Shown: positions 3,001-32,830 of the stretch, in pieces
Layout of the letters: each line of letters begins with the position of its first letter
Position numbering within the stretch: position 1 is the stretch's first letter
IMG/VR virus record: IMGVR_UViG_3300032193_000139
Coordinates: 1 to 32,830 of that record
Source: a virus
Length of the DNA: 32,830 bases
Reading direction: 5' to 3' (one strand)
Program-made: the position numbers and the translations under genes
The notes under the pieces: model-generated
Told to the model about the DNA's origin: nothing
Database searches by the model: none
The model's input: the letters and a program-made list of their open reading frames with translations, nothing else

Positions 3001-4706
3001 ACTGAACCGTGTGTTTCGGTTCCTGTATCATGTACAGGGAAAGTATCATCAGATTCTCCGTCACCAGTTACTCCAGTTACTGTGTAGACGTTTTGGTTAT
3101 ACCAAACTTTTTGACCAACAGTATATGTTTGATAATTCTCGTAAGGAACTGTATCACTACCACCAAATCTGAATAGTTCACCTGAAGAGAATGAACCATT
3201 GATAACGTCATACTCTAGATTACCAGTCAAGTAAACGTCTGGTTCATTGGTATCAGTAATATCAAAAGTTAATCTAGTAATTAAACCGTTAGCAGTACTG
3301 TTGACACCACGAATCTTTTGTCCTACTGATAATAACTCTGGAGCAACGGTAGCTGTGTTATCTGAAAATGTCAGTGAGAATTTTTCTTCTCCAAAAACTT
3401 GATGTCCTACTGGGAAGTTAAGTCCAAAATCTCCATTGATACTAGCATCATATGTAATTCTTTGCTTGTCATCAAAGACCATAGCAAAGTCCCAGGTAGA
3501 CTCTGGTTGACCATTAACGTCTAACTTATCTCTGTAAGTAACACCAATAACATAGTTCTTATCACCAAACTTAAAGATGTGCTTACCAGGATTTTTTGGT
3601 CTAATAATTACGAGTCGTAAGTTATCACCAACAACGGAAGCGTCTGGTGGTAGAGAAATGGGGTTGTCTTCTTTATAGTCACCACCAGAAACAATGATAG
3701 TTTCTTTAACACCAGGAGTTTCCCAAGCAAGTTGTGCTGCTCTCTTAATTGTACGTACTGGTTGAGCAGCAGAACGACCATTGTTTAGGTCATCACCAAT
3801 CTGTTCTGAAACATAGATACGACCACCAACGTCATTCGTTGCTAGGTTGAGGACGTATTCTGTAGTTGCTACTTTGTCTGATCTATCACCAAGAGCAGGA
3901 GTGATAGAGCGTGGGAATAAACCACTAGCTGGTAATTCGTTATAGAACTTTTCTGTTGGGTCATTTACCCTAAAACCAACATGCTTAAATAAAGCCTCTC
4001 CATTGTATTGTTCTCCATCACTATGTGTTGGTGGAACTGTACCAGTAATTCCTGCTTCAGTTACTTGATACAAATTGAAACCATACCACCTGTACTCTCC
4101 TACTTGAAGAAGAACAGGAACGGATGACCATTCGGTTCCACCACCATTTAGATAATTCTTTAAGTGGGGTGCTCTAAATTTTGTATCTGGAGTAGCAAAG
4201 TTATCAACAACTAAGTTTGAAACTCTCGCTGAATCGGAAATAATAGATGTAGAAGTTCTGATAGCACCGTTGATATCAAGTTCGTAATCAATACTATCAA
4301 TAGTTGCTTCAATTTGAGCATTGGATCCACCACCACCTTGAACGTATACAATAGGTGGAAAAGTATATCCGTCACCAACTTCAGTTACGGCGATATCAAT
4401 AAGAATACCATCTTGAATAGTAGCAGAAGCTTCTGCTTGTAGACCATCTGTCTGATCGGGCGGATCAATATAAACAACAGGTTCTGTTGTAAACCCAAAT
4501 CCTGGATTGATAATCTCAATCTTATCAATCTTTCTTCCAGTCCTATTAACACCAATTCTAGTTTGATTGGCATCGTTATTCAATGCCCTAAAAATTTCCC
4601 TCTGGTTAGACCCACTTCCAGATTGAATGACAAATTGGGTGGTGCCAATTATTGACGGTGTTACGCCTTTGATAGTCTCTTTATCAGAATTAAACTGGAA
4701 GCTCAT
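1..4706 (-). CDS. Large virion structural protein with beta-helix segment (3' end beyond window)
   Basis: The frame is open from the ATG at 4706 to the left edge (1568 codons plus two bases), so the C-terminus is missing. The N-terminus is MSFQFNSDKETIKGVTPSII. Two GxGY-type repeats follow: INPGFGFTTEPVVYI (about 65) and VTEVGDGYTFPPIVYV (about 115). Near residues 290-365, GGRIYVSEQIGDDLNNGRS, then RTIKRAAQLAWETPG and ISLPPDASVVGDN, look like the first coils of a right-handed beta-helix (pectate-lyase-like). Two related helical blocks starting CRRDIGHFLNAIIQDLEFG (about 876) and CRRDINHILSGVIRDLALG (about 1045) lie 169 residues apart. The last visible residues, SSSHTWEFAGSGVDYNALPE, are typical of this cyanophage family by my recollection. 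The CGGA (4717-4714) upstream of the ATG is the probable SD. It may be a fibre or baseplate protein; any carbohydrate binding or enzymatic activity is only inferred. Confidence 0.87.
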   Translation of the reverse strand, partial: MSFQFNSDKETIKGVTPSIIGTTQFVIQSGSGSNQREIFRALNNDANQTRIGVNRTGRKIDKIEIINPGFGFTTEPVVYIDPPDQTDGLQAEASATIQDGILIDIAVTEVGDGYTFPPIVYVQGGGGSNAQIEATIDSIDYELDINGAIRTSTSIISDSARVSNLVVDNFATPDTKFRAPHLKNYLNGGGTEWSSVPVLLQVGEYRWYGFNLYQVTEAGITGTVPPTHSDGEQYNGEALFKHVGFRVNDPTEKFYNELPASGLFPRSITPALGDRSDKVATTEYVLNLATNDVGGRIYVSEQIGDDLNNGRSAAQPVRTIKRAAQLAWETPGVKETIIVSGGDYKEDNPISLPPDASVVGDNLRLVIIRPKNPGKHIFKFGDKNYVIGVTYRDKLDVNGQPESTWDFAMVFDDKQRITYDASINGDFGLNFPVGHQVFGEEKFSLTFSDNTATVAPELLSVGQKIRGVNSTANGLITRLTFDITDTNEPDVYLTGNLEYDVINGSFSSGELFRFGGSDTVPYENYQTYTVGQKVWYNQNVYTVTGVTGDGESDDTFPVHDTGTETHGSVDFEWLRIAKTFISQDIKSIRAEGEVVFEDTDNTSFLPIAKIVGSLQGTFTGGFQSDEYGDGEDLGGIVLYTNNLIGSGNIHDFKEGQEILVEGLPTANPDLSALNGKQRIYKVLEDADGRSRRIVIPKKMPWMTSYTEEAPYEPGANAKITNASKSVTLSLLNSPNKFGQAQPLARRFQDACLQIRNNIDFIADEVVGRINDEFKKEYFSAYDITGSTLKIYLGTSRFVHNYVGGGSVVHSGVSYPITDFQYDNITTGEATITTSGNFAALNEDDLIRIADIEVSCSIDGVVTQKVYPSFNIPTSDNKCRRDIGHFLNAIIQDLEFGSNAAVIKAAEKYVEGATQRVAYVDNEIIQTVRALEYSRELAIFAMRKWRIGEGTVNDPEFTPTYTTLPKYIDNTILDDTSGGATCTNVANAINTLAYLFVDVLANNTNGTYLDAAYLIARNRHVIAEEAYQETKVQYPSLALSDINERKCRRDINHILSGVIRDLALGGNAGIVNAAEFYFSGATLTGIPEAQKDETLYAFSRVKLHAQRASRNWSNAGNVVSVSPTSATYAADTGILTVTFPTPLTSPTTNDKVAFVEGALTFNCSSGSGGDHPSPQPGDANYGRSQTISNVTSSGGFTTITTNVGNAGSAAGVSHTYVSALANGTILIYDPVDTVNEIPQFEDWNILLDGSNPICDGVNTAIETEFTLLDDILSGTILPGDTERTYGTLYDYSQIISYPSSYIYDTNGTRVTVRATYDDYPIIEASPYTQNSSVISFKGGGGAEVDGSKVKQPNCPFPGLQPDGSATFPNQGKSMVASAFTIVSFGGTGYKIVNDGYTQLVSVFVIFCEDGVLAESGGYCSITNSATNFGKYALRGVGFRDTAYDFDIGLITEVGQTVTGKTTFEVSGLGRKPLEHYIVKIDGYRNTNTSLEYFIDAVTGGAAGAPAVITLESGNGLPTDFTDIDTGFAVSNSTMLGKTIRLHRPSIVNSSSHTWEFAGSGVDYNALPEN

Positions 4707-4739
4707 CTCGTATTCCGTAAATATCTTATTTCCTCAAAG

Positions 4740-4747
4740 TATTTAGG
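4740..4747 (-). promoter_or_regulatory. Candidate weak late promoter in gap before the beta-helix gene
   Basis: The 47-bp gap contains, on the minus strand, CCTAAATACTTTGAGGAAAT beginning at 4747. CCTAAATA matches TATAAATA at 6 of 8 positions, and the downstream CTTTGA(A/G)GGAA-like tail is shared with the candidate at 9411. It lies 34-41 nt before the ATG at 4706, a usual distance. The short inverted repeat TTCCT...AGGAA that flanks it is too weak to call a terminator. Confidence 0.35.
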
Positions 4748-4753
4748 AAGATA

Positions 4754-9349: not shown

Positions 9350-9536
9350 TTCTTACTATCTCTTTTAGGAGTTGTTTGATTTCAGATATTTCTTCCTTCA
9401 AAGTATTTATGTCGTTAATTGCATTGCCAAAAGTCTGGGAAAAACTCTTGGCGGAAGGCTTCTCTGTGTTTATGATTGCCCCAGTCTCTGTGTCACGAAC
9501 CAGATTGTCGTGACCCTCAACTTTTAGATATTTCAT
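9336..9536 (-). CDS. Small coiled-coil protein, 66 aa
   Basis: This small protein starts with KYLKVEGHDNLVRDTETGAI and ends in a predicted amphipathic helix (INDINTLKEEISEIKQLLKEIV) with hydrophobic residues at heptad spacing. Proteins with this 'VEGH..LVRD..TGAI' start and a coiled-coil tail are common among the small genes of cyanomyovirus structural regions, by my recollection; their function is unknown. The ATG (9536-9534) overlaps the stop of the 2701-residue gene as TGATG, and I see no purine-rich SD just upstream, so translation probably depends on termination of the upstream gene. Its 3' end overlaps the next gene by 14 bp. Short length could suggest a chance reading frame, but the coupled overlaps, the family-like N-terminus and the absence of any competing frame argue for a real gene. 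Confidence 0.82.
   Translation of the reverse strand: MKYLKVEGHDNLVRDTETGAIINTEKPSAKSFSQTFGNAINDINTLKEEISEIKQLLKEIVRNGSS
9404..9411 (-). promoter_or_regulatory. Candidate late promoter within the 66-aa gene
   Basis: The minus strand reads CATAAATACTTTGAAGGAAG from 9411. CATAAATA matches the late consensus TATAAATA in 7 of 8 positions, and the following ACTT resembles the region after the T4 consensus. It lies 55 nt before the ATG of the 1357-residue gene, inside the coding sequence of the small coiled-coil gene. Placement before a large gene supports a promoter, but a chance match in coding DNA is possible. Confidence 0.5.
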
Positions 9537-12500
9537 CAGAATGTAGCGATTGCTCGTAGATCTTGAATCTTGGGAACATAAGCAGGATTATCAGTCTTCA
9601 TGACGATCTTGATTGAGAATGACGTGAAGTCGATCAAATCTTTAGCGTCATAAGAAAGTTCTTGGTAGTCTTCCTGCTTTTCAAATTGCCCAGAGATAGA
9701 GTTTGCTGGAGTTGCTAGAATAGGAATATTAGGACTTCCATCACCATTGAATGGAACCCAACTCGTGTCAGCTAGACTAATGGAACTGGAAGCAGACTTA
9801 ATCTTGTAATAAAGTTTGATGTTATCAAAATCTGTAGCATTTGCTGTCATCTTAACGGTGATAGCAGTACCAGGATTATTGATAGCAATTTCTTTAGTTA
9901 CATACTTAGCAACCGAAGAACTGTTAGAAGAATCAGTTTCTGGAATATAATCAACACCAGGAGTGTATGATACAGAAGCAACTTCTACAAACAAAGGATC
10001 GTCAACAGAATTTGTAGTTTTTACTACATCACCTTGTCTAAAGATATCTTGTACCTGATTTGCTGACTCTAGAGCTCTACTTAAATCTAGTTCTGCTGTA
10101 GTTCCAACGTAATCGTCATTGATTGGTTGGTAGCAATTTTCAACAACTAGAACCTGCTCTTCTGGATCCCAAAGAACAACATTTCCATTGATTTTGTTAT
10201 CGTAAGAAACATCTAGATCATTAGGATTGTATGCTACTAAGTTTGTATCTTTGTCAAATCCAATTGGAATTCTGGTGATACCGAGAACCTGGACAACAAC
10301 ATTGCTGATACCATTACCTTGAGCATCGATAACATCAAGGTATTCGTTTTTGACAAACTCAGTTTCTGTTATCAAGTCAATTGTAAATTTACCAACTTCA
10401 ACTTCTTTGACGAATCCTTGGGCGTTTGAAGTTGATCCTACGAGAGTCACGCCCTTAGTAACCTGAGCTTGGTTATCTCCATTTACAGAAAGATTTAAAT
10501 CATAGATTGGTAGGAAAGAAAGAATTTGATTTCTCTTTCCATATCTATCCTCATAACCAGTAGCATTTTCTACTCTGTTCGAAGCAGTCTTAACCGAAGC
10601 TGTTCTCAAATCAATTACTGGAGACAGGGCAGAATCAGTAGTTGACATCATCATCTTGTATGTCAATGTATTTGGTACATCATTCAATACGGCATTGATG
10701 TCAGAAGCAATTACCTTCTGGTTGATGAAGTAATGTTCTTCATTCAAGAAGGTTCTTTCATACGTAGTCTTATCATAAGTCTTAAATTCTGTAGCACCTG
10801 AATCTACAGGAATGATATTAGTCGTAGAAACAAATGTCTCTAACTTAGTTCCATCTACCTCCAAGTAAGGAATTTGAGCATAGAGTTTTTCATACTTTCT
10901 ATTATAGCTGGCAATTACATTATCACCGCCACCTAGTACACTAGATCCAGCAACACTTGGTGAAATGATATTATAACTATCGATGCCAGCGTTAGAAACC
11001 TGGAACAATCTTCCATTTAAAGTAGAACTAGAAATGCCGCCAACATCTTGGGTTTCGCCATAGAAAACATAAGACTTGCCGCTATCTTCAAAACCATTAT
11101 CTCTGTGATAAACTTTGACAATAGAATTGTTGTTCTTAAACAGAGAAGATGTAGCGTTTGATTGAGATCTTACACTAGTTTCGAATGGTGCTGATGGTAG
11201 TAGTTCGTATCCTAAAGAATCTACAGTTAGTTCAAACTCTGCTGGTGATGTGATATCAAACTGAGCACGATATAAGGTGAACTTAATATCTTCAAATAAA
11301 TCTTCTGTCCAGTTATCAGTATTTTGTGATTTATAAACCGATCCGAGAGCAGATTGTGTTGTAACTTGATTGCTGGTGGCAATCTCAGTTTCTCCGAGTT
11401 TAGAAGACCAGATTTCATAATCTAAGGAATCTGTCTCGATAGCTAGAGCATACTCAGTATTGTTAGACAAATAAACTGGATGCTTGAAAGCAAATCTAGT
11501 TGGAGTAGTGGATTCAACTGAATCAGCATTATCAATAGCAATACCCATTATTACTGCTGGAGTATCTTTTGTGATTTCAGCACTGATAGAAGCTCCAGCA
11601 GCACCAGCACCAACTCCCTTAATAACAACAGATGGTGGTTCTGTATAACCACGACCAGAGAGGAATACCTCGGAGTTGTATACTTTTCCGCCAGAAACAA
11701 AGATGCTAGCAGTAGCAGTAGACCCTCCAGGTAACTGGGGACTTTCTACAACAATAGAAGCGGACTCATATCCATCTCCAGTAGATACAACATTTAGTTT
11801 AGAAACTCTTCCAGAATCTTTAGCAATAGATAGACCTAACGTCGTGTTATTTGCTTTATTGTAAGCAGATAGAGAAGGAACTTGTAGAAGTTCATTAGGC
11901 ATAAAGGAATTGCCGTTGTGGTTGTCTAGAACCAAAGTATAAACTTGATCCTTAGTCAACTGGAATATAGTGCTGGCGTCATCTCCTACTCTAACATTAC
12001 TTCCATCATATATCTTGGAAATAGGACCAGAAGCATTTGACATAACTCCAGTAACAAACTCGCCCTTTTCAATACTGACAGTATCAAGTTCTCCAGTAAC
12101 ATATACTCTCAAATATGTTTCTGGATTTAGGGAGACTTCTGTGCCAGGAACAATATTCTTTCCTGGTTTTCCTAGAGAAACATCTGTTAAGTATGCTCTC
12201 AAAGGAATAGTATCACTCTTTTTCTTGAAGAAGAGATCGACACCAGTAACCATCACACCTTGATTAAAGTTTTCAATCTTGAAGGTCTGAGCAAGTGGAT
12301 TTGGTTTGATTGGATTATCAGTATTGCTCTCAGTTAATTGTACACCTTCATTTGCCTTGAAGTGAGACACTGCTGTTGAAATAATGCTAGGTGGATTACT
12401 AGGAGTAGATCCCATAGCATAGAATTTAACTTCAGCATATGTGACAACTTCGGACTTATCTCCGTTACCAGAATCAGAAGTAAATCTGATGGTTTTTTCA

Positions 12501-15500
12501 CCTGTTGTGATTCTAAGTTCTTCTGCTCCCTCATTGTAGTTCACAGTATCAACGTTTCCTGTCCAAACAGCATTAGAAACTGGTGGAGCTCCAGCTGGTA
12601 CGAGTAAAATGCCACTCAGATTGCCGTTAGAATCGGTTACAAGAGGCGCTCCGAAGGTTCCTACACTATTTCCAGCAATTCCAGTAAAACGACTGTCAGG
12701 GGCACACCAGGCACCAACGTCTTTACCTTCCATAAAGACATACACTTTAGTGTTTGGTTTCAGTCTATTGACAGTAAACTCAATTGGAATAGATCTAGCA
12801 AAGAATGTTAGAGAACTGGCGACAGTCTTACCACCAACATTCTTAGTAGCAATACCTTTTCCAATCTCATTATTCTGAGGACTTACATTTGAAGAGCTAG
12901 AAATCTTTGCTGCCGTAACAGTAGATTCGATGTCTTCACTATTGATATTGGAGAAAGATTCGATGTTTCCAAAAGCTTGATCTGTTCCAATCCAATTTAC
13001 GATGAAAGAGTTGTAGACGCTAGAGTAAGCATCGTTTACATTACCCTCTTTTGCCAAGAAAATAGAATTAATTTTTGTATTGGAATCTGATACTAGCGGA
13101 ATTGAAGACTGGTCATACCAAGAATCGTGTTGGGGACTAATATGAGAATCTCCAACATATTGAATTACAACAAATGGATTTGGATTGATAGTAGTTGTGG
13201 CGTTCTTGTTGCCAAGCAACTCAACTTCTGTGAATGGGAGAGTAATAACATTATCGTTGATAACATATCCATCTGCTTGTCTCTGGTCCTCTCTAGTATT
13301 AACTTCTACCAGTCTGAGACTATCTTCTTTAGTTTGTGCTCTTAGAACTGACTGTTGTGTATCGATAGCACACTTATAGTCAATAGACTTAAGATTGCCA
13401 GTACCATGAGATTCGAAATTATCAACTAAGAAACCACTCTTGGTTTTTTCCAAACCAAGATCATCCTTGACTTGCATGTTTTGAGTTTGCTGCTCTAGGA
13501 TGCTTAGCGTGGTGTAATACTCAAGACGCTCAATACGCTTCTCTAGTTTGCCGATATCCTTCATGGTATAACGCTTGTTATCCACAGGAACAACTCTAAC
13601 GTCTCTGCTGCTATTTGTATAAGCAGGGATGTGTAGATAGCAAAGAGCTACAGCATCTTCGATGGGTTCTGGTTTTGCTGGATTCAAAGAAGAGTTACCT
13701 TTCTTGATGGTAAAGTCTCCTTTCTTAGTCAAGAATAGTCCATCAATACGATCAAGATACTGCTTCTCACTAAATGTCATTGTGTAAGAAATATTAGCAG
13801 AATCTTTCACTGGAGATGGAGTTGCTGCTGCTACACCACCCTCACCAACAAAACTAATGTAATCAGTAGAATCATATTTGGAAACTACAGACTCATCTTG
13901 GAATCCTGTAATAGATGTATTCTTATCTACTTTTGGTCTGAAATCAATACAATCCCTGAGAGGAACAACACCGCTTATATCGGAGTTAAATAATGGAATT
14001 TCATTGGATGGAACTCCAGCTTCATGTGTGTAGGAATCTACCGTACAGAAATCTCCAGTAGAGTGGTCAAAGTAATCGAAGACAACAACAATCTGACCAG
14101 TGGGAGCATCTACTCCTGGTTTGAGGATAATTCTAGATACATCATAATATGTGTCACGCTGACCATCATCAAAGTTGAATTTGTAAGTGATATCAGTACC
14201 ACTAACTAGGTTGCCAGACTTATCAATTGCTGGTGGGTTGGTTGAAGTTCCTTCGTATACTTTCTTAAGTTTGTATACATCGGAATAAGAGAATGTTTCG
14301 ATAGCATCGGAATCATAATCTTGACCTCTAATAGGAATTACTCTATCGCCAGAAGAAATAACAATAACTCTCTTGTCTTTAATAGCAGTCTTGAGTCTTG
14401 GTCTAGCTCTACCAATTTCTACAGTAGCAGTAAGTTTTAGAGTTGGATATGTGCCACCATCAGGAATAACTCCAAAATAAGATGCTGGAAGATCTTTTAT
14501 TCTTAAAGCACCAGCAGTTACTGTACTAGCGGTAACAATAGATTCTGAGATATCGATGTATTTGGAGTCAATAAAAACAATATCTCCATTCTCGACAAGA
14601 GGAGAAGATCCTTTATCCAAAATAGTAATAACAAAATTCTTCTCATCAAATCCTACAAATCTTTGAGTTCCGACTGGCAATTGGGCAGTAAAGGTTAAAC
14701 CAGAACCAGGAGAAGATAGTTCAGTAACAAAATCTTTTCTGATGTAATACTTAAACTTAGTATCAGACTCGTCATTAATAACAGAAGCAACTTGCTTACT
14801 TCCAGTTGGGAAGACGAGTGTTGCTGTAGCATTATTAAGTCTAGGGCGTAGTCTGATTACAGTGGCATTAACAACATTTTGTGGTAGGGAAACATCTAGA
14901 TAGATTCTTGGTTTTTCAATACCCTGTGTATCGGTTACATATTGTACAACAGCTTTAATAGTTTCATTATTTTCTCCACTAAACTGAACGATGTCACCTT
15001 GTACCAAGAAACCAGATAGGTCGGCACCAAATCCATTACATTCAACATATTTTCTTCCCTTATAACCAAAGAAAGTAAATGCGCTTACTTGATCAAAGGT
15101 AGCATATTGACTAGAAGATACATCAATGTCAGCAGAGAATTTATAGTTGTTGTAAGTAGATCCGAAAGACTTTACATTTTGTGGAACGTATGTAAATACA
15201 GTATCTCTATAAAGGACAGGTACGATAGTAGCAGGATTTACATCTGTATTGCTATCTTCGTTAGTAGAAATAACTGGGGGATTGAAAAACTCTAGATTAC
15301 GTAACTTATTATCTTTGATACCAGCTGAGTATACAAAAGCACCGCCTGTAATTTCAGAACCATAGGTTTCCATAGAAATCTTGGACTGATCATAGGTAAC
15401 TCCATTGATAACCATACTGACACCAGTGGTATATCCACCACCTCGGTTGGTCACAATAAAGTGTGAAATTGTATTATTCTTAGCAATTCTATTAGTGTTA

Positions 15501-17641
15501 TTATCTTCGTCTAAAATAGTTTCGCCTGGAATAAATTCTCCATAAAGAGTAGTTACAAATAACTTTTTCTTAGACGTAAAATTGGCAGTAGCATCATTTT
15601 CGATAACACCGTATGCCTTACTGTCCTTACCATAAACATACTTTCCTGTAGAGAAAGTTCCGTTTCCAATAGGAGCTTCTAACAAGAGACGAGTGAAGAA
15701 GGTTGGATTGAAGTACGAGAAACCAAAGGTAGCATTATATGGTTGAGTATTTCCAACTCTTCCTCTAGAAAGAACGATGTCAGTATCCTGATTAAATCCA
15801 GCACCTCTGTTAATGAGTCTGAAGTTCTTTGGTTTTGCTAGTCCAATAACTGGGGTAATACTTTCGTTATAATCAACAATGGTTCCATAGGGAGCACTTT
15901 CTGTCTCCATGGTTCCTTGTGTTGAATAGATAAATCTCAATCTATCTGCTGGACCTAGATCATACTCGACTAAGTATTCGTCTAGAATAGCTCTGTCTCC
16001 AACAATAGTTAACTCTAAGAATTGAGCATCTGTACTTGGGTCTACTTGTACACGACTTACAATACTCTTAGACAAAACATCAGCAAATTTGCCATCAACT
16101 GTGCTATTGCCTCTTTCAGTGACAAAATAAATTCTGTCTGGAATTTCTGAAAGGGTAGATGGGAATACACCTTCTACCTTAACATAGATTGTCTTAATAC
16201 CTTGTGCTACAGTAAAGGTCTCAGATCTTCTGTTGACAGAAGTTTTCTGAGTTTGTGTTCCTAAACCATTGGTGCCAACTGTACCATCGTTAAAGACTCC
16301 ATTCAAAGTTACTGTTGGATATCCAGTGATTACATCACCAACTGTATTGAGAGGTACGGAGTTGAAAACATTAGTAATGCTAAATTCTGGTAGACCACCA
16401 GACTTGATAGTAATATTATCTCTGGTGAGAGTATCTCTTCCCTTTTCAACTTCTAGATCTTTAGTCTCTTTATTGACAATTTCATATCCTTTTACATATG
16501 CCTTTCCAGAACTGACGGAAAGAACCATTTTACCGTCTGCTTCGAAAGTGGAGTATCCATTTACCAAACCAGTTTCTTGACTTAACTGATAGACACCATT
16601 GTTATTATTTGTCTGGTAAAATTCTCTAACAGAAAAATCAAAGTCATTTACAACATAATCACCAGACTCATCGTAAGTTCTTCTTGCTAATGTTTCTTCT
16701 AGAAGACTATAGTCAGCTGGTTTTACTTTCTTCTCTACTACGCCTTCTTTAATCTTAAGTAGTTCAATAAAGTTTCTGTCAGTATCAGAAGAATATCCAA
16801 AAGAAGATAGTGTTAAATTAATTGCTAGACGATTTGCTCCAGGGGCAGAAGCATTCGAATATCCCTTTGCATTATCGTATAGAGAAACATCGTCTTGGGC
16901 AGTGACAATTTCTTCTTCTACGCTGAATCCAACTTTTGCCGATGCTTTATCGTAATATTTGTCAACAACTAATAGTTGCTTAGAATTTTTAACAAAGAAA
17001 CCGTTGACAAAGTATACACCTTCTTCTACGTCAACCGCAGTGGAAAATCCCATCGCTGGACTAGAGAGAGTGCTAGTGTTTCCAGAGATGGGATCTGTTA
17101 CGTTAATACTTGTAGGTAGAGCACTACCGTCCGTTCCAACAACCAGTAATGGTGTATTAACTCCATCTACAACTTCTAATGTCTCGCCTTGGCGGAAATT
17201 AGTTTCGTTATTAGCATCGCCACTATTTTCGTATTTTACGAATAGTGTGTCAGACTGAATATCAGACCCATAATCAGTCTGAAGAATCTTGGCGATGACA
17301 CCTGAGTTAATACCTCTAACCGTAGTACCAACGAGTTGCTTGATGTCGTATTTCTTATATACGATTCTGCCGTTCTCGTTTACGGCTACTTCTGACACAG
17401 AAGATAACTTAACATAATCCAGTTTGGTGTTTAAATTAACACCACCTGGGATGACTTGCTGCCCTTGCTTGAAGAGAAACTTGCCATAATTCTCAATCTG
17501 ATTCTGAAGGATAGACTGGAGGGAGGTTAACTCCCTCGTTTGAATAGAATATCCTGGTCTGAAGAGAACTTTATAGAAATTCTTTCCAGCATCAAAATCA
17601 TCATAATAAGGTGCTACATTAAGATTAGTCTTCTGTGGCAT
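9536..17641 (-). CDS. DUF4815-type giant virion structural protein, 2701 aa
   Basis: A large tail or baseplate structural protein of the cyanophage family whose N-terminus matches DUF4815: YYDDFDAGKNFYKVLFRPGY, then QTRELTSLQSILQNQIENYG. Further family hallmarks in order are: VVPLRDCIDFRPKVD (about 1225-1240); a predicted helix DIGKLEKRIERLEYYTTLSI (about 1362); NPFVVIQYVGDSHISPQHDS (about 1485-1510); FTVNRLKPNTKVYVFMEG (about 1615); DSNGNLSGILLVPAG (about 1670); and PLAQTFKIENFNQGVMVTGV with DLFFKKK (about 1780-1805). GxGY beta repeats occur near 615, 735, 1955 and 1998. The C-terminus, FSIKIVMKTDNPAYVPKIQD, is also typical of these proteins. It follows gp8, the place of T4 genes 9 and 10, so a fibre-socket or peripheral baseplate role is plausible but inferred. 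The SD GGAG (17650-17647) is 5 nt from the ATG and lies inside a hairpin. The stop overlaps the next start (TGATG). Confidence 0.88.
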   Translation of the reverse strand: MPQKTNLNVAPYYDDFDAGKNFYKVLFRPGYSIQTRELTSLQSILQNQIENYGKFLFKQGQQVIPGGVNLNTKLDYVKLSSVSEVAVNENGRIVYKKYDIKQLVGTTVRGINSGVIAKILQTDYGSDIQSDTLFVKYENSGDANNETNFRQGETLEVVDGVNTPLLVVGTDGSALPTSINVTDPISGNTSTLSSPAMGFSTAVDVEEGVYFVNGFFVKNSKQLLVVDKYYDKASAKVGFSVEEEIVTAQDDVSLYDNAKGYSNASAPGANRLAINLTLSSFGYSSDTDRNFIELLKIKEGVVEKKVKPADYSLLEETLARRTYDESGDYVVNDFDFSVREFYQTNNNNGVYQLSQETGLVNGYSTFEADGKMVLSVSSGKAYVKGYEIVNKETKDLEVEKGRDTLTRDNITIKSGGLPEFSITNVFNSVPLNTVGDVITGYPTVTLNGVFNDGTVGTNGLGTQTQKTSVNRRSETFTVAQGIKTIYVKVEGVFPSTLSEIPDRIYFVTERGNSTVDGKFADVLSKSIVSRVQVDPSTDAQFLELTIVGDRAILDEYLVEYDLGPADRLRFIYSTQGTMETESAPYGTIVDYNESITPVIGLAKPKNFRLINRGAGFNQDTDIVLSRGRVGNTQPYNATFGFSYFNPTFFTRLLLEAPIGNGTFSTGKYVYGKDSKAYGVIENDATANFTSKKKLFVTTLYGEFIPGETILDEDNNTNRIAKNNTISHFIVTNRGGGYTTGVSMVINGVTYDQSKISMETYGSEITGGAFVYSAGIKDNKLRNLEFFNPPVISTNEDSNTDVNPATIVPVLYRDTVFTYVPQNVKSFGSTYNNYKFSADIDVSSSQYATFDQVSAFTFFGYKGRKYVECNGFGADLSGFLVQGDIVQFSGENNETIKAVVQYVTDTQGIEKPRIYLDVSLPQNVVNATVIRLRPRLNNATATLVFPTGSKQVASVINDESDTKFKYYIRKDFVTELSSPGSGLTFTAQLPVGTQRFVGFDEKNFVITILDKGSSPLVENGDIVFIDSKYIDISESIVTASTVTAGALRIKDLPASYFGVIPDGGTYPTLKLTATVEIGRARPRLKTAIKDKRVIVISSGDRVIPIRGQDYDSDAIETFSYSDVYKLKKVYEGTSTNPPAIDKSGNLVSGTDITYKFNFDDGQRDTYYDVSRIILKPGVDAPTGQIVVVFDYFDHSTGDFCTVDSYTHEAGVPSNEIPLFNSDISGVVPLRDCIDFRPKVDKNTSITGFQDESVVSKYDSTDYISFVGEGGVAAATPSPVKDSANISYTMTFSEKQYLDRIDGLFLTKKGDFTIKKGNSSLNPAKPEPIEDAVALCYLHIPAYTNSSRDVRVVPVDNKRYTMKDIGKLEKRIERLEYYTTLSILEQQTQNMQVKDDLGLEKTKSGFLVDNFESHGTGNLKSIDYKCAIDTQQSVLRAQTKEDSLRLVEVNTREDQRQADGYVINDNVITLPFTEVELLGNKNATTTINPNPFVVIQYVGDSHISPQHDSWYDQSSIPLVSDSNTKINSIFLAKEGNVNDAYSSVYNSFIVNWIGTDQAFGNIESFSNINSEDIESTVTAAKISSSSNVSPQNNEIGKGIATKNVGGKTVASSLTFFARSIPIEFTVNRLKPNTKVYVFMEGKDVGAWCAPDSRFTGIAGNSVGTFGAPLVTDSNGNLSGILLVPAGAPPVSNAVWTGNVDTVNYNEGAEELRITTGEKTIRFTSDSGNGDKSEVVTYAEVKFYAMGSTPSNPPSIISTAVSHFKANEGVQLTESNTDNPIKPNPLAQTFKIENFNQGVMVTGVDLFFKKKSDTIPLRAYLTDVSLGKPGKNIVPGTEVSLNPETYLRVYVTGELDTVSIEKGEFVTGVMSNASGPISKIYDGSNVRVGDDASTIFQLTKDQVYTLVLDNHNGNSFMPNELLQVPSLSAYNKANNTTLGLSIAKDSGRVSKLNVVSTGDGYESASIVVESPQLPGGSTATASIFVSGGKVYNSEVFLSGRGYTEPPSVVIKGVGAGAAGASISAEITKDTPAVIMGIAIDNADSVESTTPTRFAFKHPVYLSNNTEYALAIETDSLDYEIWSSKLGETEIATSNQVTTQSALGSVYKSQNTDNWTEDLFEDIKFTLYRAQFDITSPAEFELTVDSLGYELLPSAPFETSVRSQSNATSSLFKNNNSIVKVYHRDNGFEDSGKSYVFYGETQDVGGISSSTLNGRLFQVSNAGIDSYNIISPSVAGSSVLGGGDNVIASYNRKYEKLYAQIPYLEVDGTKLETFVSTTNIIPVDSGATEFKTYDKTTYERTFLNEEHYFINQKVIASDINAVLNDVPNTLTYKMMMSTTDSALSPVIDLRTASVKTASNRVENATGYEDRYGKRNQILSFLPIYDLNLSVNGDNQAQVTKGVTLVGSTSNAQGFVKEVEVGKFTIDLITETEFVKNEYLDVIDAQGNGISNVVVQVLGITRIPIGFDKDTNLVAYNPNDLDVSYDNKINGNVVLWDPEEQVLVVENCYQPINDDYVGTTAELDLSRALESANQVQDIFRQGDVVKTTNSVDDPLFVEVASVSYTPGVDYIPETDSSNSSSVAKYVTKEIAINNPGTAITVKMTANATDFDNIKLYYKIKSASSSISLADTSWVPFNGDGSPNIPILATPANSISGQFEKQEDYQELSYDAKDLIDFTSFSIKIVMKTDNPAYVPKIQDLRAIATF

Positions 17642-17644
17642 CGT

Positions 17645-17690
17645 TACTCCGCCAAATACTTTAATTATCGTTGAAGTATTTAGCGGAGTA
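17645..17690 (-). promoter_or_regulatory. 17-bp hairpin between gp8 and the DUF4815 gene, burying the RBS
   Basis: Positions 17645-17661 pair with 17674-17690 over 17 bp with a 12-nt loop; in the minus-strand RNA all pairs are Watson-Crick except one G-U. The 3' arm contains GGAG (17650-17647), the only SD of the 2701-residue gene, 5 nt from its ATG. No U-run follows, so it is not a typical intrinsic terminator. The 5' arm also contains GCTAAATACTT (17684-17674), a 6-of-8 late-promoter-like match. If transcription started there, the transcript would lack much of the 5' arm and the SD could be free, whereas read-through transcripts from gp8 would fold it. Confidence 0.7.
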
Positions 17691-17699
17691 AAAGTTGAA

Positions 17700-19664
17700 T
17701 CAGAACTCGATTACGAGTTTGATATCTTCAATCTGGTCTTCAGCACGGGTGATGAGACGACGGTTCTCAACGTAGATAACCTCACCAGAGTTGTTCTCGA
17801 TTTCAGGGGTGGCAAGACCGTTGTTGAAGGTGATACCCGATCCAGCAGGGGAAGAGTTGTCACCAACGGTTACAGCACCTGTAGCAAGAGAATACTCACC
17901 AGAGATTGCCTGACCAGCGTCAGCAATGAATGCTCTTACAACACCATCATCTTGGTGAAGAGCAGGAGTCTGCATGTACTTGAGAACACCAGATCCAGGA
18001 GTGCCAGCGGTAGGAGTTGGGGAAGAAGCGTCGAGTTTCCAGGAAACAACGGTGCCTCTAGCTTCGCCACCAGTAGGCAGAGTCTGAGTAATCAACTCGT
18101 CAACTTGATAATCAGCGGTTACGTTGTCAAGCTTGAGAGCGAATAGACCATTGAGGTTGCTGGCGGTTGTTCTGTTGGTAGTACCGTAAGCGAAAGGATC
18201 ACGGATAATACCGATACGACGGAAGTCGTTATCAACAGGGAAGTCGCCGTCGCCTTCAGCGTACTCAAGGCGAATGTTGGTCATAACACGCTTAGCGTTA
18301 AGCTCTTCTTCGAAGTTAGCACCGTGACCACCTTGAGGAGGAAGGATAACTTCAATAGCACCAGTGGCAGTAGCACCAACGGTTGCCTTGGTGATAGCAC
18401 CAGTACCTAGGGCAGAATGGTCAGCAGGAGTCTTGGCAGTTCCGTCACCATAGAGACCGTAAGGAGCACCAGTCCAACCAGCATCAGCTTGGTCGATACC
18501 AGTCTTGAGATGAACACTACCATAGGTGTATCCAGTACCACGGACGATTACATTAGCGGTTTGGATAGTACCACCAGAGATATCGATTTCAACAATACCA
18601 TCACTACCGTCACCGATGATTGGAGCATAGTAGAGACCATTAGGTAGGTTAGTACCATTCGACTCAATATAAACAACGTCAATAGCGTTGGGGTTAGCAG
18701 CTGCTAGTTGCTCAGTGGCGTGGCGAGTAGCATTACCACCAACAACATTACCACCACCATCAAGGACAGGCTTGAGGGCAATAGGCATGAAGTCAGTAGA
18801 ATAGAAGCGGATAACATCATTCGTAGGAATGGTGTACATGTACTTCCACTTATATCCTCTACCAACAACACTGCTGGTAGAAGTATCATACTCCCAGAAA
18901 ATGCCAGTGGCAGCATCATAGGAACCAGCACCAGAACCAGGGTTGGTTGTAGGCTCTAGTTGTACGGTATTGTTACCAGCACCGAGACCTTGGTCTTCGC
19001 CATTGTAGAGGCACTTGAATACTTCGTATTGACCATTGACTAGGTAGAACTTAGCATCAGCGATTGATTCTTCGCCAGTAGATGTTGGTTTGCCTGTTTG
19101 ACCAGTTGTCGTCTTGGAATAGTCTGGTTTCCACATGTCGAACACAGGGTTGTTCGATGGGTTCCAGTTGTAACGACGAATGACCTGACGGGCATAGTCA
19201 GTGGTGATCTTTTTGGCAGCGATGAGGTCATCATAGACTTCATACTTTTCTGCTTGGTTGTCGATTGGAGCGGGAGGTACATCCTCAGTAGCGTAGCGGT
19301 AAACACCAGATAGTGCTTCAGCACCAGTGTCAGCAGTTCCGTTATGACCCTTAACAAGGGAACCGACAGCAGGAGCAGCGGCAGTGTTAGGTCCGATAGC
19401 GGAGAGGAGTAGCGAATTTTCGGTTACGCCTTCGATCTGTCCGAAGAAGGTAGCGCCTTGACCAGCGGATGGTCCAGTACCACCAACGTAAACGAATTGT
19501 CCCACAACGAAGTCAGCGGTGGGTTGGTAAATCTCTAGATAGGAGTCCCAGCGTTGGGGACGACCCACGAAGAAATACATGTTAGTATTTTCTGCTTCAT
19601 CCATAGATTCTAGAAATTGGGAAGCATTGAAAATTCTAAACTTATCTGAAATGATAGCAGCCAT
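17700..19664 (-). CDS. gp8: Baseplate wedge subunit gp8, enlarged (654 aa)
   Basis: Gp8 is a baseplate wedge protein that bridges gp7, gp10 and gp6 in T4. The N-terminus (ISDKFRIFNASQFLESM, then NMYFFVGRPQRW) matches T4 gp8 (TSKFRTEKMLNFYNSI, NTIFITFGRSEPW). The middle GYKWKYMYTIP matches GYVWEYLFEIP. FPVDNDFRRIGIIRDPF matches LPGNKGFRQISIITNPL, and the C-terminus (SGEVIYVENRRLITRAEDQ) matches SGEMIYMENRPPIIMAMDQ. T4 gp8 is 334 residues; the extra length sits mainly after the GYKWKYMYTIP segment, where a GTGY repeat occurs (about residue 375), and between the IIRDPF and SGEVIYVENR segments. An SD AGAGAG (19678-19673) lies 8 nt from the ATG, with a double TATAAATA late promoter just upstream. 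G+C is visibly higher than in neighbouring genes: hand-counted lines give 47-57% against 35-37% in the gp7-like gene. Different codon selection or strong expression could explain this. Confidence 0.94.
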   Translation of the reverse strand: MAAIISDKFRIFNASQFLESMDEAENTNMYFFVGRPQRWDSYLEIYQPTADFVVGQFVYVGGTGPSAGQGATFFGQIEGVTENSLLLSAIGPNTAAAPAVGSLVKGHNGTADTGAEALSGVYRYATEDVPPAPIDNQAEKYEVYDDLIAAKKITTDYARQVIRRYNWNPSNNPVFDMWKPDYSKTTTGQTGKPTSTGEESIADAKFYLVNGQYEVFKCLYNGEDQGLGAGNNTVQLEPTTNPGSGAGSYDAATGIFWEYDTSTSSVVGRGYKWKYMYTIPTNDVIRFYSTDFMPIALKPVLDGGGNVVGGNATRHATEQLAAANPNAIDVVYIESNGTNLPNGLYYAPIIGDGSDGIVEIDISGGTIQTANVIVRGTGYTYGSVHLKTGIDQADAGWTGAPYGLYGDGTAKTPADHSALGTGAITKATVGATATGAIEVILPPQGGHGANFEEELNAKRVMTNIRLEYAEGDGDFPVDNDFRRIGIIRDPFAYGTTNRTTASNLNGLFALKLDNVTADYQVDELITQTLPTGGEARGTVVSWKLDASSPTPTAGTPGSGVLKYMQTPALHQDDGVVRAFIADAGQAISGEYSLATGAVTVGDNSSPAGSGITFNNGLATPEIENNSGEVIYVENRRLITRAEDQIEDIKLVIEF

Positions 19665-19699: not shown

Positions 19700-19713
19700 T
19701 ATTTATATTTATA
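19700..19713 (-). promoter_or_regulatory. Double T4-type late promoter upstream of gp8
   Basis: On the minus strand the sequence reads TATAAATATAAATA, which contains two overlapping perfect copies of TATAAATA (19713-19706 and 19707-19700). This octamer is the late-promoter -10 element recognised by the gp55 sigma factor of T4-like phages. It overlaps the stop codon of the 620-residue gene and lies 36-49 nt before the gp8 ATG, so transcription would start about 10 nt downstream and give a leader of some 25-35 nt. It is the only perfect match I noticed at a gene boundary in the window. Confidence 0.78.
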
Positions 19714-31145: not shown

Positions 31146-32830
31146 TTACTCTGGGTAGGCTGTAAACTTGCTGCTTGTCATATCAACGTCCAAATACACT
31201 TCTCTCATGGCAACGATGTCGTCATACATGGGAAGGGCACGAAGTTCGATTTTATTATCACTGAAGCTTCCTTGTACAATAGTTAAATCGTACAATTGGA
31301 CCTCACCTTTTTCATAATTTACGGTTCCAACGGAATCATTCAGCGTAATTTTATCACCAGTCAATCTGTCTAATCTATATAGGACCATTGCTCCATCGTT
31401 ATCTTCCAAATACACCGTGTACGTTGGGAATTCGCTTACTTTGAACCCTGTAGATGTGACTACTGGTCCTTCACATTTCTCATCAAATCTGTTCTGATAA
31501 CAGATCTCGTAGTAACTCTTAGAATTTAACTGAGGAAAGAAATCCTTTCTCAATGTGAGACTGGTGGTATTGGAGTTGATAGAAGAGTCCGAATTGTCAA
31601 TTGTAGAAACAAATTTACTATATCGGAACTTGCCATTGAATTTCTCAGTTTGAGACTGTCTGAGATAGGACTCTAAAGATGATTTTACTTTAGTCTGTAC
31701 TTGCTCGGGTCTCTGGGTAGTCCTGGAAGTATCGTAGTAGATGCTCGAATTAACCTCGACATACAAAATCGAAGCATCAATAATATCTGGTATAACAGAA
31801 GCAACCATATATGGCTTCAATTTCTTAGCAATATCCTTCTTAGTGGCGTTAGATAGGTAATTTGAACTCTCTGGTTTAATTACAATCTTGACCTTTCCAT
31901 ACTCTGGGGGATCATCTTCTTCTCCACCAAATGTAATAATATCGGAAATTGCTGGATAAATGTTTCTTACAATGGCAGCATAATCATCTGATGTTACCGC
32001 TCTATCCTGTGTAGAAAAGTACTTAGGAGCGTTGTATTTGATCTGTGAGATGGATTCGATCTCGGCACCACCTTCCGCTGCTACAGACCCCTCTACGGTC
32101 ACGCTAACAGGGAATCCTGTGGAATAGAAGATATCTGTTAGTACACCGTTCCAGGTAAAGTTCTTAGCGCCGTTTGTAGAAGCACCATTTGTAATTAGAT
32201 AAGAGATCTCAATTTGCTCTCCATTCTCTAGAGCTCTACCAATTACACCATCACCAAAGAAAATTTCATATCTCTCGTCTTCAATTTCATCTACAAAGAA
32301 AACAGGAGAGTCGGGTCCAACATTGAGAATATTATCAGAATATTCGTGATCTAGATATGCTGTTGACTGATCACTAGCAAAAACTCTTACTCGAAGACTA
32401 GAAATGTCAACGTTAGCATTCTGAATAATAAATCTTTGCTTAATAGAAGTATCTACGATATAATTGTTCTCAATTAATGTTCCTTCGTAGACAGGAATTT
32501 CAGTGAAAACTGCTGTTGAATTAGAAACAGGAGCAGTATGATCGTCAATAGCGACGAATGAATATAAAGTATCGTCAAACGTCGTCGTAAACCCCGTTCC
32601 CTTCTTGAATAAGGAGGTTGTAGGAGCACTTTGACCATATGATGCCGAAAAGGATACTTTCGCCACTGGAGCGGTTCTAGACTTAGGTTTGTATCCTAAT
32701 TGCTTGGCAAGTGATACAACGTTGTCACGAAGAGTAGCAGAGTCTAGAAACAGCTCGTTCACCACCATGTTGGTGTTGAATGCTGTGTAGTAAGTATTAT
32801 AAGCAAGAACGTCCAACAGGACGCTCATTG
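31146..32830 (-). CDS. gp6: Baseplate wedge subunit gp6 (5'-truncated by window edge)
   Basis: This is the baseplate wedge protein gp6 of T4-like phages; in T4, gp6 forms the inner ring that joins wedges around the hub. The visible part is 560 residues plus two bases. It opens with the segment LLDVLAYNTYYTAFNTNM followed by LFLDSATLRDNVVSLAKQLGY. From memory this lines up with T4 gp6 around residues 50-95 (LCDLLAYNTLY..., ANLRSSVVQAAQDNGY). T4 gp6 is 660 residues, so roughly 50 N-terminal residues should lie beyond the right edge. The ATG at 32828 is therefore probably an internal Met, not the start; the preceding codon ends in CA, which fits a residue such as Ala or Ser. The middle part (FFGDGVIGRALENGEQIEISYL, split here for length) is typical of J/gp47-like baseplate proteins. 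The stop TAA (31148-31146) lies 5 bp before the next gene, so the two are probably cotranscribed. Confidence 0.93.
   Translation of the reverse strand, partial: MSVLLDVLAYNTYYTAFNTNMVVNELFLDSATLRDNVVSLAKQLGYKPKSRTAPVAKVSFSASYGQSAPTTSLFKKGTGFTTTFDDTLYSFVAIDDHTAPVSNSTAVFTEIPVYEGTLIENNYIVDTSIKQRFIIQNANVDISSLRVRVFASDQSTAYLDHEYSDNILNVGPDSPVFFVDEIEDERYEIFFGDGVIGRALENGEQIEISYLITNGASTNGAKNFTWNGVLTDIFYSTGFPVSVTVEGSVAAEGGAEIESISQIKYNAPKYFSTQDRAVTSDDYAAIVRNIYPAISDIITFGGEEDDPPEYGKVKIVIKPESSNYLSNATKKDIAKKLKPYMVASVIPDIIDASILYVEVNSSIYYDTSRTTQRPEQVQTKVKSSLESYLRQSQTEKFNGKFRYSKFVSTIDNSDSSINSNTTSLTLRKDFFPQLNSKSYYEICYQNRFDEKCEGPVVTSTGFKVSEFPTYTVYLEDNDGAMVLYRLDRLTGDKITLNDSVGTVNYEKGEVQLYDLTIVQGSFSDNKIELRALPMYDDIVAMREVYLDVDMTSSKFTAYPE

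Follow-up and report, generated by a model that had tools for sequence, protein, structure and literature searches.

Why would a T4-like cyanophage fill almost the whole of the short gap between two virion genes with a single RNA hairpin that takes in the ribosome-binding site (RBS) of the downstream gene? The window that we analysed (IMG/VR record IMGVR_UViG_3300032193_000139, 32,830 nt) is a piece of such a phage, its top DNA matches being to Synechococcus and Prochlorococcus myoviruses, and its minus strand carries every large gene. These include a baseplate wedge gene (31146-32828) and virion genes encoding a 3189-residue protein, a 620-residue protein, the baseplate wedge protein gp8 (17700..19664) and a 2701-residue protein (9536..17641), together with further virion and tail-fibre-type genes. 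The 2701-residue product is VrlC-like (phrog_358, DUF4815), with matches to its first 300 residues in 909 phage records, and VrlC is a baseplate component (PMC7029224). Between the gp8 stop codon TGA (17702-17700, minus strand) and the ATG of the 2701-residue ORF (17641-17639) there are 58 nt (17642..17699), and the complete device discussed here is contained in them.

The minus-strand RNA of this gap folds into an uninterrupted stem of 18 pairs (17691-17674 with 17661-17644), all of them Watson-Crick except for one U·G; the stem described in the initial annotation is therefore present, its length being 18 pairs rather than the 17 bp given there. The 5' arm, UUACUCCGCUAAAUACUU (17674..17691), and the 3' arm, AAGUAUUUGGCGGAGUAA (17644..17661), enclose a loop region (17662..17673) with two further, weak pairs beyond the 18-bp stem. 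The Shine-Dalgarno GGAG (17647..17650) is paired within the 3' arm, 5 nt upstream of the VrlC-like ATG. The minimum free energy of a 121-nt stretch was -36.7 kcal/mol, as against -16.7 +/- 3.0 kcal/mol in 200 dinucleotide shuffles (z = -6.6), none of which (0/200) reached the value of the hairpin. Both the sequence and the fold bear out the earlier description of a hairpin that occupies almost all of the gap and includes the GGAG of the gene for the 2701-residue protein (ORF start 17641). Also as described, the stem is not followed by a U-run in the window sequence, and the hairpin does not have the form of an intrinsic terminator (a G+C-rich stem, then a U-run). An Rfam search with the hairpin gave 0 matches at the gathering score, and the sub-threshold hairpin matches were mainly to microRNAs.

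The 5' arm contains a T4-type late box, GCTAAATA (17677..17684, minus strand), and the promoter-like sequence that had been noticed in this arm was indeed found there as GCTAAATACTT. A late promoter of the form NATAAATA has been reported in cyanophages, and every cyanophage of this type whose sequence was available by 2010 had g55 (PMC2984593). On the plus strand of S-CAM4, CTAAATA lies 20-60 nt upstream of ORFs in 10 of 24 cases and ATAAATA in 18 of 42, with control words in the same position in 1/16, 1/5, 0/31 and 0/22. T4 late promoters have an 8-bp box spanning -13 to -6 (PMC2988020), and therefore the +1 of the late RNA is predicted at about 17671 (+/- ~1), in the loop, so that this RNA would lack the entire 5' arm and not, as first proposed, a part of it. 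We rejected the idea that the palindrome represents two divergent late promoters (as at T4 77337/77385), the opposite strand reading CCAAATAC, which is not a late box.

Taken together, the best explanation of this arrangement is probably an RBS hairpin that is bypassed by a late promoter placed in its 5' arm. RNA entering from gp8 would fold the gap into the 18-bp stem and lock up the VrlC-like gene's Shine-Dalgarno sequence, which would keep ribosomes from initiating. A gp55-type late polymerase starting at the GCTAAATA box would yield an RNA whose 5' end lies in the loop and which, free of the whole 5' arm, would be translated. The source of the large baseplate protein would then be late transcripts of its own gene rather than read-through from gp8. 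We infer that the promoter is active, where it starts transcription and that translation of read-through RNA is repressed; the fold, the extent to which it is conserved, its alignment with the box and its independence of terminators were computed directly. In the computed folds, the RBS of RNA arriving from upstream is held in a helix, and freeing the Shine-Dalgarno sequence and AUG costs 24.3 kcal/mol in the window read-through RNA versus 7.0 kcal/mol in the late RNA.

To survey relatives we collected 80 through gp8, 111 through the hairpin pattern and 120 through the beginning of the VrlC gene, whether or not a hairpin was present; together with a few named isolates these gave 298 leaders, 180 of them distinct. 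The box occurs in the register of the window in 108 of the 180, with a stem of at least 10 arm-arm pairs in 104 of these 108, so the stem is not lost in close relatives, an outcome that would have spoken against the initial annotation. The predicted start lies 28-33 nt from the ATG in all 108 hairpin leaders. Five of the 180 have a terminator and box without an RBS hairpin, and the remaining 67 have neither the box nor comparable sequestration of the RBS. The hairpin-blind set (103 leaders) was made up of 37 leaders having box and hairpin, a single leader having just terminator and box, and 65 that had neither; about 15 further loci from that scan had already been counted among the hairpin-search loci. 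All 111 exact matches to the hairpin pattern were at the VrlC-like locus and S-CAM4 has a single copy, for which reason we rejected a mobile or repeated element. Leaders of the S-CAM4 type carry GGCGGA just outside the stem. Outside the gene tree described below, the box is present in Syn1, S-RIM44 and Sf-CH11 with neither a terminator nor an RBS hairpin; in the gap after gp8 of Syn1 and S-RIM44 the late box lies in a small palindrome, CCTAACCT-CCTAAATA-AGGTTAGG, that stops short of the RBS.

Two other loci are recorded here as separate observations. In the window itself, a tail-fibre-type gene ending at 4706 is preceded by a second gap (4707-4753, minus strand) that holds a late box, TCCTAAATACTT, and a hairpin weaker than the first; the sole relative found has the GCTAAATA box without a similar hairpin. 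In S-CAM4 (NC_031900, position 98634) a hypothetical gene has its start region covered by a hairpin in which a late box is embedded; we considered this locus as a second conserved case and rejected it, as the hairpin was found in S-CAM4 and an identical copy and not in most relatives.

In the 67 box-less leaders gp8 and the VrlC gene lie 2-47 nt apart, and at most 9 nt apart in 39 of them, as if the two genes were translationally coupled; the median opening cost in box-less leaders is 3-4 kcal/mol. Such near-contact in distant relatives (2-9 nt), along with the mere 8 nt that separate the window's gp8 stop codon from the stem, could suggest that ribosomes finishing gp8 open the hairpin, which would then tune translational coupling instead of silencing read-through. 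Judging from its footprint size, however, a ribosome terminating on gp8 would extend no further than the stem's base, and the hairpin persists in terminator-bearing leaders in which the gap is ~95-104 nt; we therefore consider this explanation unlikely.

A separate terminator, consisting of a G+C stem and U-run, lies upstream of the hairpin in 56 of the 108 hairpin leaders, which bears on a further explanation, namely that the hairpin ends or protects the gp8 mRNA (as a terminator, 3'-end stabiliser or RNase site) and that RBS pairing is a by-product. A strong stem directly 3' of the end of a gene is what one would expect of such an element, but the stem lacks a U-run, and it invariably stops at the RBS and includes the promoter, features that a terminator does not need. 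A tree of the N-terminal part of the gene shows 15 changes of the terminator, 4 of the hairpin and 5 of the box; the history of the terminator is therefore separate from that of the hairpin, while box and hairpin travel together. This makes a role at the gp8 mRNA end quite improbable. Strong U-run terminators between gp8 and the VrlC gene (e.g., in leaders L015, L022-L025 and L034, among others) were thus gained or lost ~15 times on the gene tree. The only tree clade with a box but without an RBS hairpin has a terminator just upstream, and a terminator taking the place of the hairpin fits the silencing of read-through, this being a single event. Median opening costs without a terminator are 15.5 kcal/mol in the read-through RNA and 7.0 kcal/mol in the late RNA; with a terminator they are 8.7 and 6.4 kcal/mol, respectively. 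A weaker hairpin where a terminator lies upstream (median opening cost 9.3 kcal/mol, as against 17.2 kcal/mol) had a raw p of 8e-5, but with 7 independent tree pairs the effect was not significant and we did not retain it.

The pairing itself appears to be selected. RNAalifold found no consensus structure on a MAFFT alignment of 81 leaders, likely due to misaligned bulge classes, and in its place we used per-sequence pairing, an arm-swap test and a hand-picked 12-row alignment. In the arm-swap test, which optimises matched and swapped arms alike, leaders pair at -16.2 kcal/mol with their own arms and at -15.2 kcal/mol with the 3' arm of another phage, 0 of 2000 permutations being as good. Among representatives less than 90% alike the number of permutations as good was again 0/2000, rising to 14/2000 below 80% and 116/2000 below 70%; the signal for selected pairing thus fades once none but distant representatives are retained. 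In the 12-row alignment 84% of cells pair, versus at most 55% in slid registers, and five cells have changed on both sides, which one of 500 shuffles reaches. Several pair types occur outside the box, e.g., four nt before the box T we counted C-G 65, U-A 17, U·G 12, G-C 3 and A-U 1, these counts being taken from each leader's own best fold and hence biased toward pairing. Compensatory stem changes in relatives, which the initial annotation had named as a check, are thus seen in part: changes in both arms keep the pairing, with a weaker signal among distant representatives. With that qualification, the hairpin structure appears from the compared sequences to be kept in relatives.

One could still suppose that the complementarity has no regulatory effect and reflects common descent along with separate constraints on promoter and RBS, as the box is invariant, so that much of the stem cannot covary, and the arm-swap signal weakens with distance. 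Against this, the AGUAUUU of the 3' arm, which is neither promoter nor Shine-Dalgarno sequence, is kept only where the box is present, and matched arms pair better than swapped ones; we regard the absence of any effect as very unlikely. Of the 108 leaders, 99 retain the U·G pair at the box T, and in 102 the mRNA-sense fold beats the antisense fold. An A opposite the box T would pair equally, but would place CTAAATAC, a divergent late promoter, on the other strand, and the wobble may be kept to avoid this. That the palindrome functions at the DNA level, as an operator covering the late promoter like the one of I-TevI autorepression, which is known to overlap a late promoter (PMC2988022), is the least credible explanation and highly improbable, since the U·G would be a mismatch in a DNA palindrome, the sense fold is the stronger and the loop and distal stem vary freely.

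The hairpin with a bypassing late promoter has close counterparts in T4. In T4 e, soc and 49 the RBS is held in a helix on long transcripts, a late box lies in or beside the 5' arm and the late RNA lacks the arm (PMC3014915). As a control, we scanned T4 for late boxes that pair into the RBS and recovered e, 49 and I-TevI, all documented RBS hairpins (PMC3014915, PMC2988022), with e and 49 showing the layout of the window; soc was not among the listed matches. The scan also brought up T4 77337/77385 and 112007/112057, where divergent late promoters overlap as one palindrome, each leader folding onto its own RBS, and which scored as high as e and I-TevI. The T4 layout of RBS hairpin and late promoter recognised in the initial annotation is thus strongly supported, by the conserved layout, the matched-arm pairing, the sense-strand wobble and the T4 control. 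Compared with e, soc and 49, the gene (baseplate VrlC), host group and sequence are different, and the stem is longer than in e. Similarities extend to T4 I-TevI, whose late promoter is placed so that the late RNA cannot form the inhibitory structure, and to Aeh1 mobE, compared by description, where an RNA hairpin hides the RBS with a similar promoter arrangement (both PMC2988022). I-TevI, however, is an intron homing endonuclease with an operator, none being known here, and mobE is a homing endonuclease gene whereas the present hairpin serves a virion gene. At -13/-12 the late consensus of Aeh1 reads a/gC, as does GCTAAATA (PMC2988020). In Aeromonas phage 25, seg43 has a stable hairpin right at its RBS (PMC2988022), like the S-CAM4-type leaders, while the window has its RBS within the stem; the effect on translation is putative in both.

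One difference from T4 concerns timing. RBS hairpins in T4 act on early or middle read-through RNA, early read-through being documented for e, soc and 49, and the silencing of early read-through had been proposed here as well, but what lies upstream are virion genes, and a late box (19705-19700) precedes gp8 itself, so that early silencing does not find support. For the same reasons the read-through RNA would be at least partly late, with the late-type boxes upstream of gp8, TATAAATATAAATA (19700..19712, minus strand), as its putative source. We tentatively suggest, with some doubt, that the hairpin separates late from late: the dose of the VrlC-like protein would be set only by its own late promoter, uncoupled from the late gp8 operon, and in one cyanophage lineage this would have replaced a near-touching, probably coupled gp8/VrlC arrangement. 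The silenced RNA may be early, middle or late, and such insulation from the late gp8 operon seems about as likely as early silencing.

Reviews of T4-type RBS hairpins (PMC3014915 and PMC2988022), in the portions considered, name none in cyanophages, and PMC3014915 examined syn9, S-PM2, P-SSM2 and P-SSM4 solely for gene e, which all four lack. Syn9 could not have shown the hairpin because it has no gap between gp8 and the VrlC gene. Our literature searches, which had most subscription journals outside their reach, found no report of such a cyanophage hairpin, and a T4-type late-gene RBS switch in cyanophages has apparently not been described before. A regulatory switch familiar from T4 textbooks would thereby be extended to marine cyanophages, which are abundant, and to a gene for virion assembly. 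More than 100 naturally occurring versions of the locus are available, among them lineages in which promoter, hairpin or terminator has been acquired or lost, and therefore, unlike with the few T4 cases, why late genes would need RBS hairpins becomes testable by comparison.
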